From an uncultured Candidatus Nitrosopumilus sp. (GTDB taxonomy: Archaea > Thermoproteota > Nitrososphaeria > Nitrososphaerales > Nitrosopumilaceae): a DNA stretch of 64,000 nucleotides. The stretch covers positions 1,341,620 to 1,405,619 of the forward strand of contig OX638319.1 in NCBI GenBank assembly GCA_951812655.1, written 5' to 3'. Below the pieces are notes generated by a model. It did not search any database, was not told the origin of the DNA, and saw nothing but the letters and a program-made list of their open reading frames with translations. Shown here piece after piece: positions 850 through 24,104 of this stretch. Made by a program: the position numbers and the translations under genes. Each line of letters opens with the position of its first letter. Within the stretch, counting starts at the first letter, position 1.

Positions 850-2475
850 TCAGGATATCCTCATGAATCCTTCCTTTACAAGAAACTGCATTCCCTCTAT
901 GAAGGAACCATCGTCAATCTGACCATCTGCCCACCAGCCTGCGTTGCTCTTAACCCATGAAGGAATTTCCATACCAGGCTGTGACGTGGAGGCCTGTTCT
1001 GTTACGTCAATCCTCATGAATCCTTCCTTTACAAGAAACTGCATTCCCTCTATGAAGGAACCATCGTCAATCTGACCATCTGCCCACCAGCCTGCGTTGC
1101 TCTTAACCCATGAAGGAATGGCGACGTCAATCTTCACATCTTTCTCATTCATGGAGGATATTGAAAAAGATGAATCTGAGATCATGAAGGTTTCAAAGTT
1201 TCCAGAGTTCTGGCCGGTAAGAATTAATTTCATGTTAAATTTTCCGTCATCTGAAATCATAATGGATTCCTGTGCAATTCCATGGGCCGCCAAGACTCCA
1301 AGGTACGATTCGTTAGAACCTATGTTTGACCAAATCTCGTTTCCAGACTCATTAGTGATGCTGTAGGCAAATAAAATATCTTTCACAGGACTGTTACTCT
1401 GGTCAAAGAATGAAAACGTAAACGGAATTTCATGTCCTGAAGAAGACTTCGAGTCCCACATTACGGTGGCAGAGTAACCGTTGTCATATGCAAAATCAAG
1501 AATGTTAAATTCAATACGCTCACCAGAAAGCAATTCTATCGTGGAAACATTCTCAGAGTCATTTTGTCCAGATCTTTCTTCAATTAATCTAAATTCATCA
1601 TACGGGACGTTAATTCGGATGATGTATTCACCAGGAATGGATGCGTCGAGATCGTACAAGGTATCTTGAAGTTGAATTCCGTTTACCATTACATCAACAT
1701 CATATCCCTGTTTGAAATTTGAAAATTCTTCCTTTATCGAAATAACTTGCTTTACGTCAGAGTCGTGATGATTATCTGATTTCTCATCAAGAAGTATGTC
1801 GTATGTTATTTTCTTGGACGATTCGTTGAAACTGAAGTTTGAAATATCTCCATTATATGATTTTACAGATATTGGGATCTCTTGAGCGCTGGCATCCTTG
1901 ATTAGAAATATTTCATTTTGAGGAATGTGCAAAAAGGTTTCAAAAAGCAAGTCAGTGGTGGTCATTGTTCGGGGATTGGTAGCTCCTACGATGGAGACTT
2001 TGATATTGTATTGTCCACTTCTGTCAAAAACAGGACCCTGTATAGTAGGCAACGAATCTCCTCGGGCATAGTACGCCCCAGCTATAGCATGCTTTTCACC
2101 ATTATACTGCGTGCACTTCCACAGTTCTTTCTCCGGACATCCACTAGTTGGCTTTATCTTCACGTCTAGCTTGCCATCTTCGTCAAAGTAATACTCATTG
2201 GCAACAAGGGTTGACTCGTGGAAGATTTGAATCCTGTACGTGACGCTTTTTACGTTAACATTGGTCTCACTGTCAAAGAATCTGACTGACAGATTTGCAT
2301 TCTTGTCTTCCTCGTAGGCATAGTCTTCAGGAGACAGAATAGTGCTAATGGCTACCTGCATACCATCAAAATCAACTGGCGGGGCAATTGCTCCTGAATG
2401 ATGCTGTGCAAATGCAGGAGATACAGAAACAAGGAATAACGCAGATATTGCAAACAATCCCCACTTTGGAATCAT
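850..2475 (-). CDS. Large secreted protein with two C-terminal tryptophan-rich modules
   Basis: The 541-residue protein begins with a Sec-type signal peptide (about residues 1-23, ending ...SPAFAQ). The middle, about residues 25-450, looks like beta-rich extracellular domains with no catalytic motif I recognise. The C-terminus holds two near-identical modules (about 453-490 and 504-541), each starting I-P-S-W-V-K-S-N-A-G-W-W and ending near F-M-R-I. The same module occurs in PhnD (13650-14738) and in the secreted protein at 22995-24104. I infer a cell-surface protein in which the module serves attachment or partner binding. The ATG at 2473-2475 fits the signal peptide. Confidence 0.75.
   Translation of the reverse strand: MIPKWGLFAISALFLVSVSPAFAQHHSGAIAPPVDFDGMQVAISTILSPEDYAYEEDKNANLSVRFFDSETNVNVKSVTYRIQIFHESTLVANEYYFDEDGKLDVKIKPTSGCPEKELWKCTQYNGEKHAIAGAYYARGDSLPTIQGPVFDRSGQYNIKVSIVGATNPRTMTTTDLLFETFLHIPQNEIFLIKDASAQEIPISVKSYNGDISNFSFNESSKKITYDILLDEKSDNHHDSDVKQVISIKEEFSNFKQGYDVDVMVNGIQLQDTLYDLDASIPGEYIIRINVPYDEFRLIEERSGQNDSENVSTIELLSGERIEFNILDFAYDNGYSATVMWDSKSSSGHEIPFTFSFFDQSNSPVKDILFAYSITNESGNEIWSNIGSNESYLGVLAAHGIAQESIMISDDGKFNMKLILTGQNSGNFETFMISDSSFSISSMNEKDVKIDVAIPSWVKSNAGWWADGQIDDGSFIEGMQFLVKEGFMRIDVTEQASTSQPGMEIPSWVKSNAGWWADGQIDDGSFIEGMQFLVKEGFMRIS
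857..966. repeat. 110-bp direct repeat, copy 1 (C-terminal module)
   Basis: This stretch is identical, base for base as far as I can read, to 1010-1119 (offset 153 bp). It encodes the last tryptophan-rich module of the secreted protein. Identity at the DNA level indicates recent duplication or gene conversion. Confidence 0.9.
1010..1119. repeat. 110-bp direct repeat, copy 2 (C-terminal module)
   Basis: Partner of 857-966. It encodes the penultimate tryptophan-rich module of the same protein. The 43-bp spacer encodes a short Thr/Ser/Gln linker. Confidence 0.9.
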
Positions 2476-12032: not shown

Positions 12033-12824
12033 CTAGTTTGATGAAATTTCCATCCCGTGTTGGGATTTGATGATGAACTTATCCCTAATCTTTACACTTG
12101 CCCAATCTATCACCAGAACTGTGATCAGAACAATCAGCATGAAGATGGCAGCCTTTCCATATTCAAAGAACTTGATGTAGTTTATGATGTAGAATCCTAT
12201 TCCACCTGCACCTACCAATCCTAGAATACTAGTCTGACGAACGTTATAGTCAAACATATACAGTATTTGACTGAGTAGATGCGATGCAGATTCTGGAATT
12301 ACCACATATCGAATCAGCTGAGATTTAGATACGCCTATAGAATCGACGGCATCCATAGGGTCAGAATCGATTGTCTCAATGGTCTCATACTGTAACTTTG
12401 CTATGAATCCAATCGTATACATGATAATTGCCAAAATACCTGCAAAAGAACCGGAACCAACCATAATCACAAACAAAAGCGCCCAAAGAATTGAAGGAAA
12501 CGTCCTCATTGCTGCAAGTAGGGCACGTATTGGTGCATAGACGAATTTACTGTTCAAATTTCTTGCAGCAAGCATGCTAAGAGGAAGGGAGATTGCAACA
12601 CCTACTGCTGTTCCGATAAATGCCATCTGAATTGTTTCAAACATTGCCCATAATGCAGTTGGAATATATTTTGGTTCGACTAAAATCACCTCTTCTAAAA
12701 TTATACCAAGGTTTGGCAGACCTTCAAAGAATTTCACAGGATCTGCGTCCATGTTATATGATGCAATTACAACCAAGGCCACAATTATCCCGATGACGAT
12801 GTTATTTTTTGGAGTCATCAGCAT
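12033..12824 (-). CDS. phnE: Phosphonate-type ABC transporter permease PhnE
   Basis: The permease has about six membrane spans and the conserved permease loop around S-I-G-V-S-K-S-Q-L-I-R-Y-V-V-I-P, where the ATPase docks. The open frame extends upstream to 12872, but I prefer the ATG at 12824 (263 residues) because it gives only a short overlap with the ATPase gene and begins just before the first hydrophobic span. It is the last gene of the minus-strand phnD-phnC-phnE set. Confidence 0.88.
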   Translation of the reverse strand: MLMTPKNNIVIGIIVALVVIASYNMDADPVKFFEGLPNLGIILEEVILVEPKYIPTALWAMFETIQMAFIGTAVGVAISLPLSMLAARNLNSKFVYAPIRALLAAMRTFPSILWALLFVIMVGSGSFAGILAIIMYTIGFIAKLQYETIETIDSDPMDAVDSIGVSKSQLIRYVVIPESASHLLSQILYMFDYNVRQTSILGLVGAGGIGFYIINYIKFFEYGKAAIFMLIVLITVLVIDWASVKIRDKFIIKSQHGMEISSN

Positions 12825-13632
12825 AAGTCTCCATAATTTCTTCGATATCCATATCTCCTGTTTGGAAATCAACTATGGTATCACCCTCCACCCCGATTTC
12901 AAGGACTTTTTCTCCTTCTTTGATAACTGCAACCCTATCTGCGTATTCTAAGGCTAATTGCATGTCGTGATGGACCATTATGGCAGTCAAATTCATTGTC
13001 TTTTGAGCATCTGCAATCAAGTTCATGATTTCACGAGCAGTGACATGATCCAACTCTGAAACAATTTCATCTGCCAATAGGATTGTTGGTTTTTGCATCA
13101 AGGCACGGGCAATAGCAACTCTTCTTTTTTCACCCCCACTTAGCATGTATGCTTTTCTAGACTCTTTGTTTCCAAGTCCTACAAGGTTTAAAATTCTTTT
13201 AGCCTCATCTAACTCTTCTTTGGGAAATTTTTTAAACAATGATGAAATTTTTCCAATTCGTGGAAGAGCACCAATCAGAATATTTTCCAAGACAGTGATG
13301 TTTTTTACCAATCCCAAATTTTGAGGAATGTATCCTATTGTATGCATCATCTTTTTGAATTTTTTGTCATTCATTTTGGGGGTCACGTAATCAATTTTGA
13401 TTGTACCATTACTTGGTATCATCATACCGTTCATTAACTTCAATAGCGTTGACTTGCCAGACCCAGATTGCCCAACAACAGCGTAGTTTGTGCCACGTTC
13501 AATCGACATGTTAATTCCCTTTAGTGCAAAACTCTTAGAATCATATGAAGTTGAAATGTTATTCATCTGAATGATTTTTTTTGTTGAGATTAATGAAAAA
13601 GAAGGATTTTTGTTCATCTGAATTTGTTTCAT
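12802..13632 (-). CDS. phnC: Phosphonate-type ABC transporter ATPase PhnC
   Basis: The 276-residue ATPase has Walker A G-Q-S-G-S-G-K-S-T, signature L-S-G-G-E-K-R-R, Walker B I-L-L-A-D-E and the switch His in M-V-H-H-D. PhnC proteins energise uptake of phosphonates, phosphite or related oxyanions, depending on the binding protein. The N-terminus is about 20 residues longer than usual, so an internal start (M23, within I-I-Q-M-N-N) is possible. It lies 17 nt after phnD and overlaps phnE. Confidence 0.9.
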   Translation of the reverse strand: MKQIQMNKNPSFSLISTKKIIQMNNISTSYDSKSFALKGINMSIERGTNYAVVGQSGSGKSTLLKLMNGMMIPSNGTIKIDYVTPKMNDKKFKKMMHTIGYIPQNLGLVKNITVLENILIGALPRIGKISSLFKKFPKEELDEAKRILNLVGLGNKESRKAYMLSGGEKRRVAIARALMQKPTILLADEIVSELDHVTAREIMNLIADAQKTMNLTAIMVHHDMQLALEYADRVAVIKEGEKVLEIGVEGDTIVDFQTGDMDIEEIMETYADDSKK

Positions 13633-13649: not shown

Positions 13650-14738
13650 TTATTTGCTCTTGTTGTATTTATCAAGGATTAGGCTATCCAGTCCAGTCAA
13701 GGCATCAATGAATGTTCCGAACTCTCCAATGTGCATCGTAGTAGTGGTTGGAACCAATGCCTCAGCGCCATACAAATCGGTCAAAATTGAATTATGCTCA
13801 TCATAATTTAGTTTAATGAGAGCACTAACTAAGGAATCTTTTGTATTCTCTGACATGTCACCATTGACCATGAATACATGTGATGGAACCGGTCCAATGG
13901 TTGTGACAGGACGCAATTTTACTTGATCTTCTAATTCAAGATATTTTTCAGGTGCTATGTCCGATCCAAATGCCACATCGACGTTTCCATTTATGAGCAT
14001 TTCCAGGGCTGCCTTGTATCCACCTGTAAATACATGACTTTCAAAATTCTTGTCCAAAGCAGATTTTAGTGCCACTATGTCATCACCATGTATATCTATA
14101 TGGCCACCAGTTACCAAGGTTCCCATAGGTCTCACAAACCCAGAAGAACCAGTAATGCTGGTAAACGCAACCTTCTTGTCAATCGTATCTTCTAGTGAAT
14201 GTATCGAATCATTTTCAGCTAAAGTCCAAACAGTTGCCTGATAATTCACTTTACCAGCAACTAGTTCTGCCAACACAGCTTCTGCACCAGTTCTCTGATG
14301 AGTAATCCATGCAGGTCCAGTATCCATGAACGCCGCATCAATGTGGCCAAACCTCATCCCTTCTATGATTGTTTCATAGTTTGAAGGAACTACAATTTTC
14401 ACATCTACTCCAATTTCACTTTCAAGAAACGTTTCAAGAGCTTGTGCCTTTGAAGTAAGTTCGTCAGCCTTTTCAACAGGAATGAATCCAATGGTAATTG
14501 TGTCAACATCTACCGTATTTGATTCAGATGAAACAGAGATGATGTCATTTTCTATCAGGTATCTAATTCCATTTAGAAAAGTTTCGTCATCCAATGCACC
14601 GTCAGACCACCAACCTGCATTTGATTTAATCCAGTCTGGAATTAAACTTTCAGCTTGAGCAGTTTGAGTTAACGGCACAGACATCACACCAATCGCTGCA
14701 AATAATGCAATGAATGCAAAAATGGTTTGTCGTTTCAT
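13650..14738 (-). CDS. phnD: Phosphonate-type binding protein PhnD with N-terminal W-rich module
   Basis: The 362-residue protein has a signal peptide (about 1-29, ending A-Q-A), then a module at about 33-69 with I-P-D-W-I-K-S-N-A-G-W-W, then a full PhnD/PtxB-type periplasmic-binding domain (about 78-355, including F-M-D-T-G-P-A-W and S-I-T-G-S-S-G-F). The binding domain captures phosphonate or phosphite outside the cell for PhnC-PhnE. The extra module is shared with two other secreted proteins in the window; I infer that it holds the binder near the surface layer, since no lipobox Cys is visible. Confidence 0.9.
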   Translation of the reverse strand: MKRQTIFAFIALFAAIGVMSVPLTQTAQAESLIPDWIKSNAGWWSDGALDDETFLNGIRYLIENDIISVSSESNTVDVDTITIGFIPVEKADELTSKAQALETFLESEIGVDVKIVVPSNYETIIEGMRFGHIDAAFMDTGPAWITHQRTGAEAVLAELVAGKVNYQATVWTLAENDSIHSLEDTIDKKVAFTSITGSSGFVRPMGTLVTGGHIDIHGDDIVALKSALDKNFESHVFTGGYKAALEMLINGNVDVAFGSDIAPEKYLELEDQVKLRPVTTIGPVPSHVFMVNGDMSENTKDSLVSALIKLNYDEHNSILTDLYGAEALVPTTTTMHIGEFGTFIDALTGLDSLILDKYNKSK

Positions 14739-14859
14739 GTTTAACTAAAAAATTAGTGCAAGCTAAATTATTTAAATCAAGATTTGATTCTAGATTGTCA
14801 TTACAAAAACATGGAATGAGAAGGATACAAATATGTTGATCAGTATTTTTCTTAAATCT

Positions 14860-17219: not shown

Positions 17220-17864
17220 ATGACACAGTTTTACTTACTTTCAATTCCAATAGTCATAGGCATTGTCGCAGGAATATTTTTGGCTTTTTATCCAGAATCT
17301 GAACAAGAAGCAAATCTTCTAACACATTCCAAATTGATTGAAGGCGGATCTCCGTTTATTGGAAAAGATGATGCAGCAATTACAATTTTAGAATGGGGAG
17401 ACTACCAGTGTACTTATTGCTATAAATTTCATCGAAACACTCTAGATACAATTAATGAGAATTTTATCAAAACAGGAAAAGTGAAGATGGTTTTCAAAGA
17501 TTATCCTTTAAACGGTCCGGACTCGGTTTTGGCAGCAGAAGCATCACATTGTGCACAGGATCAGGGAAAATACTGGGAGTATCATAACGAACTATACAGA
17601 AACTGGGGAGGCGAAAGAACAGGATGGATAACATATGAATCCTTGAACAAATTTGCAAATACTGTTAATTTGAACATGAGTGATTTCAACACCTGTTTAC
17701 AGGAGCACAAGTACAGGGAAAAAGTGATTTTGATGTACGAATTTGGAAAAGAGATCGGAATAGATGCAACACCTTCATTTTTGGTTTTTGATGATCAGAA
17801 AATTATCAAAATTAGAGGTAATCAACCGCTGGAAGTATTTCTTAAAACATTTGAGGAGATGTGA
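17220..17864 (+). CDS. Membrane-anchored DsbA-family thiol-disulfide oxidoreductase
   Basis: The 214-residue protein has an N-terminal hydrophobic anchor (about 3-24) and a thioredoxin fold with a DsbA-type helical insertion. The active site is C64-T-Y-C67 in W-G-D-Y-Q-C-T-Y-C, and the cis-Pro loop is A-T-P-S-F. Such proteins oxidise or isomerise disulfides on exported proteins, or act in electron transfer on the outer face of the membrane. The DsbA/DSBA-like group is strongly expanded in ammonia-oxidising archaea. It lies upstream of prf1 on the same strand, but a shared function is unlikely. Confidence 0.9.
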   Translation: MTQFYLLSIPIVIGIVAGIFLAFYPESEQEANLLTHSKLIEGGSPFIGKDDAAITILEWGDYQCTYCYKFHRNTLDTINENFIKTGKVKMVFKDYPLNGPDSVLAAEASHCAQDQGKYWEYHNELYRNWGGERTGWITYESLNKFANTVNLNMSDFNTCLQEHKYREKVILMYEFGKEIGIDATPSFLVFDDQKIIKIRGNQPLEVFLKTFEEM

Positions 17865-22994: not shown

Positions 22995-24104
22995 ATGAAA
23001 TTCACCATTGCCTTAATTTTTCTGTTTCTGATTTTTCCAGTTAGCTACGTAATAGCTCACGGAGAAGTAAATGATTTTTCTACAGACAAGAAGATTTATC
23101 ACAAAAACGATCAACTCAACATATCTGGAAATGTTGAATTTGACTCAAATGTTCCATTTGTCACAATCCAGATATTCACCCCGGGAAAATCTGGCTTCGC
23201 AGATTTCAAAACATTTCCCATAGGTTCTGATGGAAAATTCTCTGCAGTGTTTCACGTGGGAGGTCCCACATGGACCGCGGAAGGAAATTATCCCATCAAA
23301 GTGACCTATAATGGAAACATCGAAAAGACAATCCAATACAAAGAATTTGCTGTTCAGAAAGAACAGGAGTCAGTCCCCGAGCCGGAAGTGCAGCAGGAGC
23401 CAGCCCCCGAGCCGGAAGTGCAGCAGGAGCCAGCCCCCGAGCCGGAAGTGCAGCAGGAGCCAGTCCCCGAGCCGGAAGTGCAGCAGGAGCCAGTCCCCGA
23501 GCCGGAAGTGCAGACCAGACAGGAATCTAACTTCATCACTTTAAAATTTAAAATTCCAAATTTCCCATCATTTGACAAACCTCCACAGTACTACATTGAC
23601 AGATACAACAACGAGCAAAGTTACAAAAAATGGTTTGACTCACAATTTCCAAATGACTCCATAGTTGAAGTTGTAGGATACAAAGCAACAAAGGTGGCAG
23701 ATTTCCCATCATTTGACAAACCTCCACAGTACTACATTGACAGATACAACAACGAGCAAAGTTACAAAAAATGGTTTGACTCACAATTTCCAAATGACTC
23801 CATCTACAATGTTTTGGGATACAAAAATCCAATAGCAGTTCCAGACTGGATTAGAAACAATGCCGAATGGTGGGCAATAGGAGAAATCAACGATTCCACA
23901 TTTGTGTCAGGAATAGAGTTTATGCTAGAAAATGACATAATCAGAATTTCAAGTATCTCACCATCTGGAAATGTTTCTGATGACGAAATTCCATCTTGGA
24001 TTAGAAACAATGCCCATTGGTGGTCACAAGATTTAATCTCAGAAGATGAATTCGTTAATTCTTTGAAGTTTCTAATCCAGAATAGAGTGATAACCGTCAA
24101 TTAA
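22995..24104 (+). CDS. Secreted repeat protein with Pro-Glu linker and W-rich modules
   Basis: The 369-residue protein has a signal peptide (about 1-22), a beta-sandwich domain (about 25-120) resembling archaeal surface macroglobulin/Ig-like folds, then a Pro/Glu/Gln linker of ten-residue units (about 126-173). Two identical tyrosine-rich repeats follow, beginning F-P-S-F-D-K-P-P-Q-Y-Y (about 190-223 and 237-270), and two W-rich modules close the chain (I-P-D-W-I-R-N-N-A-E-W-W and I-P-S-W-I-R-N-N-A-H-W-W). A rigid, surface-exposed stalk with terminal binding modules is the most reasonable reading. The length of the linker is probably variable between strains. Confidence 0.8.
   Translation: MKFTIALIFLFLIFPVSYVIAHGEVNDFSTDKKIYHKNDQLNISGNVEFDSNVPFVTIQIFTPGKSGFADFKTFPIGSDGKFSAVFHVGGPTWTAEGNYPIKVTYNGNIEKTIQYKEFAVQKEQESVPEPEVQQEPAPEPEVQQEPAPEPEVQQEPVPEPEVQQEPVPEPEVQTRQESNFITLKFKIPNFPSFDKPPQYYIDRYNNEQSYKKWFDSQFPNDSIVEVVGYKATKVADFPSFDKPPQYYIDRYNNEQSYKKWFDSQFPNDSIYNVLGYKNPIAVPDWIRNNAEWWAIGEINDSTFVSGIEFMLENDIIRISSISPSGNVSDDEIPSWIRNNAHWWSQDLISEDEFVNSLKFLIQNRVITVN
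23371..23513. repeat. 30-bp tandem repeat, nearly five units, in coding sequence
   Basis: The unit cagtccccga-gccggaagtg-cagcaggagc repeats at 23371, 23401, 23431, 23461 and (partly) 23491, with one variable base. It encodes the ten-residue Pro-Glu linker unit. It is much richer in GC than its surroundings. Near identity points to recent slippage. Confidence 0.95.
23560..23662. repeat. 103-bp direct repeat, copy 1
   Basis: Matches 23701-23803 exactly (offset 141 bp) as far as I can read. It encodes the first tyrosine-rich repeat. Confidence 0.9.
23701..23803. repeat. 103-bp direct repeat, copy 2
   Basis: Partner of 23560-23662; the intervening 38 bp encode a short linker with V-V-G-Y-K. Confidence 0.9.

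Follow-up and report, generated by a model that had tools for sequence, protein, structure and literature searches.

What is the function of a tryptophan-rich segment that stands between the signal peptide and the binding domain of an archaeal substrate-binding protein? The question is raised by an open reading frame of an uncultured Candidatus Nitrosopumilus, located in a window of 64,000 nucleotides (the whole stretch of DNA that was analyzed). Ammonia oxidizers of the Nitrosopumilaceae type are among the most abundant archaea of the ocean, where they live on nanomolar nutrients. The segment is a distinct domain that recurs on proteins with export signals and is exchanged for other anchors. 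It probably serves as a non-covalent tag that docks and retains exported proteins of Nitrosopumilaceae.

The extra module described in a preliminary description of this DNA is indeed found between signal peptide and binding domain, in an ORF of exactly the extent given there (Table 1). The translation reads MKRQTIFAFIALFAAIGVMSVPLTQTAQAES-LIPDWIKSNAGWWSDGALDDETFLNGIRYLIENDIISV-..., and residues 83-332 then match the Phosphonate-bd fold of Pfam (E 1.1e-41). The protein matches PF12974 with 143 bits (cut-off 27) and TIGR01098 with 127.1 bits (cut-off 112.05) but misses the cut-off of the PhnD equivalog TIGR03431 (95.9 bits versus 261.1). Its best PDB match and closest solved relative is PtxB, a binder of phosphite and methylphosphonate, and the closest solved relatives altogether bind phosphite, methylphosphonate, or arsenic oxyanions. 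The name PhnD given earlier is therefore a loose label. The whole binding fold is like that of PtxB/PhnD proteins (PF12974, TIGR01098), from which the protein differs by its additional N-terminal module. Its N-terminus contains no cysteine and no lipobox, as had been noted before. The archaeal TATA-like box TTTAAATAA is conserved in orthologs both with and without the module and sits 30-38 nt before the ATG, which places the start codon upstream of the module and not, as had been considered, downstream of it.

Table 1. Coordinates of the binding-protein gene, its parts, its neighbors, and the other module copies in the window
Feature	Position	Strand	Basis
PhnE-type permease, start codon uncertain	12033..12872	-	TIGR01097 above cut-off
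PhnC-type ATPase, downstream of binding-protein ORF, same direction	12802..13632	-	best NCBIfam match TIGR02315, 206 bits, below the 266-bit equivalog cut-off
PhnD/PtxB-type substrate-binding protein ORF, 362 aa	13650..14738	-	Phosphonate-bd E 1.1e-41; TIGR01098 above cut-off
Predicted cleavable signal peptide, residues 1-30 (...TQTAQA/ES, cut at the slash), without lipobox	14649..14738	-	sequence; AxA followed by E/Q/D in 69/74 module-bearing orthologs
W-rich hairpin module, residues 33-69	14532..14642	-	profile matches; residues conserved in 45 orthologs
Predicted module helix 1, residues 35-45	14604..14636	-	AlphaFold2 model, pLDDT about 78-85 over module
Predicted module helix 2, residues 51-63	14550..14588	-	AlphaFold2 model
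Predicted linker from module to binding fold, residues 70-79, low confidence at 71-73	14502..14531	-	AlphaFold2 model
Binding fold, residues 83-332	13743..14492	-	Pfam Phosphonate-bd; PDB matches (PtxB)
TATA-like box TTTAAATAA, 30-38 nt upstream of ATG	14768..14776	-	sequence; conserved in orthologs
Module copy 1, exported protein 850-2475	1006..1122	-	profile search
Module copy 2, exported protein 850-2475	853..969	-	profile search
Module copy 1, exported protein 22995-24104	23835..23954	+	profile search
Module copy 2, exported protein 22995-24104	23985..24101	+	profile search

The module comprises 37 residues, IPDWIKSNAGWWSDGALDDETFLNGIRYLIENDIISV, and follows the consensus IPxWIKxNAxWWAdGxIDDxxFvxGIxxLIxxgII, in which P34, W36, K38, W44, F54, L61, and I67 are invariant or near-invariant among 45 orthologs. 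Its recurrence is far above chance: a leave-one-out profile built from the other module copies scores the binding protein with 65.9 bits, while the best of 5000 shuffles of the module residues reaches 12.1. In AlphaFold2 models based on the 45 orthologs, the module takes on two helices (pLDDT about 78-85) after a disordered signal peptide and is separated from the binding fold by a low-confidence linker. It is thus predicted to form an independent hairpin of two helices, tethered by a flexible linker, and the conservation pattern would fit a folded hairpin whose core positions are apolar and whose second helix is capped. Neither Pfam, searched with 30 single copies, nor NCBIfam, searched with 17 tandem pairs, gave a match (in NCBIfam, none above chance). 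A search of the PDB by sequence and by fold returned nothing above chance, the viral fold library and the phage and plasmid collections contained no match, and PHROGs gave weak, scattered matches only. A description of the module was not found in the literature searched, a body of work that leaves out most subscription journals. The DGxIDD stretch resembles half of an EF-hand loop, which requires aspartate at positions 1 and 3; an EF-hand is ruled out, as the residue at position 1 varies and a tryptophan occupies position 3. A SHOCT-like helical hairpin finds no support in any Pfam match.

A profile search of the 1.67-Mb source genome identified 39 module copies in 22 ORFs. Within the window, the binding protein shares the module with two other exported proteins (850-2475 and 22995-24104), and 19 more carriers lie elsewhere in the genome. 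A single copy is present in PhnD, PstS, a cupredoxin, and two others; further carriers include a DsbA-like thioredoxin, a matrixin-type protease, a nuclease-like protein with an Excalibur motif, and a CARDB protein, and many have no Pfam domain. About 20 of the 22 carry a recognizable signal peptide (judged by eye), which makes the module a feature of exported proteins. The earlier phrase "shared with surface proteins" is borne out in this sense, and the mostly cytoplasmic occurrence that had been named as incompatible with it is not observed, since nearly all carriers are exported. The two exceptions are L022, in which a signal peptide is encoded immediately upstream in another frame, and L023, which has none. 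The position of the module varies, being N-terminal in PhnD and the cupredoxin, C-terminal in PstS, and internal in the DsbA-like protein. The copy number is one or two, and a metagenomic PhnD has two. Such freedom of position and number is as for a docking tag.

Several individual loci deserve mention. The nuclease-like ORF at L022:5434-6561 bears hairpins and has its likely signal peptide out of frame upstream, which indicates a frameshift, a pseudogene, or a sequence error. Two adjacent genes at L020:4705-7071 encode tandem hairpins that are nearly identical as well as C-terminal domains that resemble each other, and probably result from a recent duplication. On the viral collection entry IMGVR_UViG_3300006340_000718, PhnC and other ABC genes adjoin the gene of a PhnD-type protein that has a tandem pair of hairpins (L206:4917-6146), and phage-like genes for structural proteins are found on the other half of the contig. 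This is probably a chimeric assembly; the contig may also represent a virus carrying a surface-docked binding protein. A cupredoxin-like protein that ends in two hairpins is encoded at L205:1-783 (IMGVR_UViG_3300022670_001029).

The frequent duplication of the module opens a different explanation, in which hairpins bind each other, so that exported carriers form a network or complexes and the single-hairpin PhnD and PstS dock on tandem-hairpin proteins. The tandem pair is present at nearly constant spacing in 17 of the 22 carriers, and near-identical tandem copies occur within single proteins. The AlphaFold2 model of a tandem pair consists of four helices and suggests a defined packing of both copies (pTM 0.70 for 93 residues), and the aromatic residues might be conserved for contact with a partner as much as for the core. 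However, for a model of this small size pTM is weak evidence, and one-copy carriers are evolutionarily stable in PhnD, PstS, and the cupredoxin. Pairing between hairpins is considered unlikely.

Retention at the cell surface is suggested by what replaces the module where it is missing. None of the module carriers of the source genome has a C-terminal or internal transmembrane (TM) helix, compared with about 10 of the 33 module-less proteins whose N-terminus is hydrophobic; TM helices and cleavage sites were assigned by simple hydropathy and motif rules throughout. Among PhnD orthologs (130 ORFs, 102 of them distinct), the module state changes 12 times on the best tree, which was calculated from the binding fold alone, and at least nine times on well-supported branches. 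A cleavage site of the AxA type, followed by E, Q, or D after a hydrophobic stretch, is present in 69 of the 74 scorable module-bearing proteins and in 0 of the 25 module-less ones; one regex match among the latter (IPAD) was discounted because it does not represent a cleavage site. Seven to nine of nine phylogenetically independent pairs point in the same direction and none in the opposite one (sign test, median p 0.004). The module-less proteins mostly start with a typical uncleaved membrane anchor, for example MSNGKIAGIAIGTLAIGIAIGFFIPTD, while two from very small genomes (L072 and L073) could be cleavable. In one genus, the N-terminal anchor of the module-less PhnD is common to a distant PhnD paralog (NKFYAIIPIILVVGIGIGYG versus NKFYVLIPIILIAGIGIGYG; score 124, shuffle maximum 44).

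Module and cleavage site could be lost together through one deletion, which would correlate both traits mechanically in PhnD. This explanation fails for the paralog-like anchor and for PstS. Of 56 PstS homologs, 29 end in one module, and among the remaining 27 the C-terminus is a TM helix (8), a PEFG-CTERM signal plus TM helix (6), a tail rich in lysine (6), or none of these (7, most of which adjoin a PEFG-bearing copy). The module and a TM helix were not found together on any of the 56 proteins. As only three to five of the switches are independent, PstS is too small a set for a test of its own. The exchange is also not universal: module-less relatives of the cupredoxin possess a signal peptide and a different N-terminal domain instead of a TM helix, and module-less short S-layer paralogs of two genera have gained no TM helix either. 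The DsbA-like proteins are a possible further pair in which one fold has two retention styles, as the protein at 17220-17864 of the window has an N-terminal TM helix and is apparently related to the hairpin-bearing one in L021.

The exchange with TM helices would also be expected if the hairpin were itself a peripheral membrane anchor, lying with its tryptophans and its amphipathic second helix (hydrophobic moment 0.54) in the outer face of the membrane. The module is acidic, however, with a mean net charge of -3.0 and -5 in the copy of the binding protein. In addition, the spacing of most of its conserved apolar residues is that expected of a small folded core, and modeling yields the hairpin fold with good confidence in the absence of a membrane, which leaves direct membrane binding rather improbable. 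A contact with the transporter or another specific enzyme partner, in place of retention, is suggested by the presence of the module on an ABC-transporter binding protein. It is hard to reconcile with the same hairpin on proteins that have no transporter (matrixin protease, nuclease, cupredoxin, DsbA-like protein, S-layer paralog) and with binding-protein orthologs in many genomes that lack the hairpin, and has little probability. A neutral spacer, spread by duplication and recombination, would account for the very high copy number and the near-identical tandem copies but is highly improbable given how strongly positions P, W, W, F, I, and L are conserved in deep orthologs and given the repeated exchange with functional anchors.

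Most likely, the hairpin retains exported proteins on the cell surface, because it is repeatedly swapped with membrane anchors and recurs on exported proteins. In the proposed sequence of events, the signal peptide of the binding protein would be cut off, after which the hairpin would dock on a fixed partner at the cell surface. The short flexible linker would leave the binding fold free to deliver its ligand to the PhnE/PhnC transporter encoded alongside. In hairpin-less orthologs, the same fold would be kept near the membrane by the uncleaved N-terminal helix.

Candidates for the partner are the S-layer, another hairpin, a glycan, and a membrane protein. An S-layer or S-layer-associated protein is a first guess that should be regarded as doubtful. 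The module is present in 58/58 sampled Nitrosopumilaceae genomes with 4 to 44 copies each, in 1/143 genomes of other families of the order (a single copy), and in 0/127 genomes of other families in the phylum sample; the named ortholog records belong to Nitrosopumilus and other Nitrosopumilaceae. S-layer proteins of the NmSLP type follow the same family-level distribution (56/58 genomes of the family, 0/143 other genomes of the order), which is weak evidence for a link, as both distributions represent a single lineage. A 1066-residue paralog of the Nitrosopumilus maritimus S-layer protein (PDB 8c8k, E 5.8e-103; PMC11153153) ends in two modules in the source genome, but the module is absent from the main S-layer protein of the genome (open frame of 1748 aa) and from 8c8k itself. 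Docking at the surface, as proposed in the preliminary description, is supported as far as a membrane-anchor role is concerned, through the ortholog comparison, and its choice of the S-layer as partner is plausible only. The short S-layer paralog (about 1070 aa, for example at L015:5029-8229) occurs in most of the family and carries two terminal hairpins in several genera and none in two. In the published S-layer of the NmSLP type, the pores measure about 5 Å and the side that faces the cell is very acidic (PMC11153153). With such pores, the lattice itself may already confine proteins. The acidic side suggests a specific rather than an electrostatic contact for the acidic hairpin, and it fits the lysine-rich tail as an alternative device on PstS.

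Known retention devices share some of these properties. In archaeal substrate-binding proteins, a lipobox or N-terminal TM anchor keeps the binder near the transporter, and the module-less orthologs use such a TM helix. In contrast, no lipid or TM anchor is left on the module-bearing protein once the signal peptide is cut as predicted. PEFG-CTERM and PEP-CTERM-like archaeal sorting signals, which take the place of the hairpin on the same PstS protein of other genera, combine a motif with a TM helix and a basic end, whereas the hairpin lacks a TM helix and may stand at the N-terminus or within the protein. SLH domains are short and repeated, often in tandem, and hold unrelated exported proteins at the envelope from either end. 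The hairpin resembles SLH (PF00395) and other bacterial non-covalent docking domains of S-layer or wall in its short, often tandem repeats on unrelated exported proteins, and presumably also in holding them at the envelope. It differs in its 37 residues and two helices, in the lack of a Pfam match to SLH or another family, and in being confined to essentially one archaeal family. The module thus appears to work like SLH-type docking domains without being a member of any family tested.

These results bear on how nutrient-binding proteins stay at their transporter in a cell without an outer membrane. Pfam and NCBIfam hold no model that covers the hairpin, which marks the retained exoproteome of the whole family and points to candidate partners. 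Nearly identical binding proteins that carry either the module or a TM helix constitute a natural experiment, through which the function is directly testable. As a tentative wider proposal, the exoproteome of Nitrosopumilaceae could be organized through this one uncatalogued hairpin, with binding and redox proteins, proteases, nucleases, and an S-layer paralog docked on a common S-layer site or on each other by a code unrelated to SLH, LysM, or sortase.
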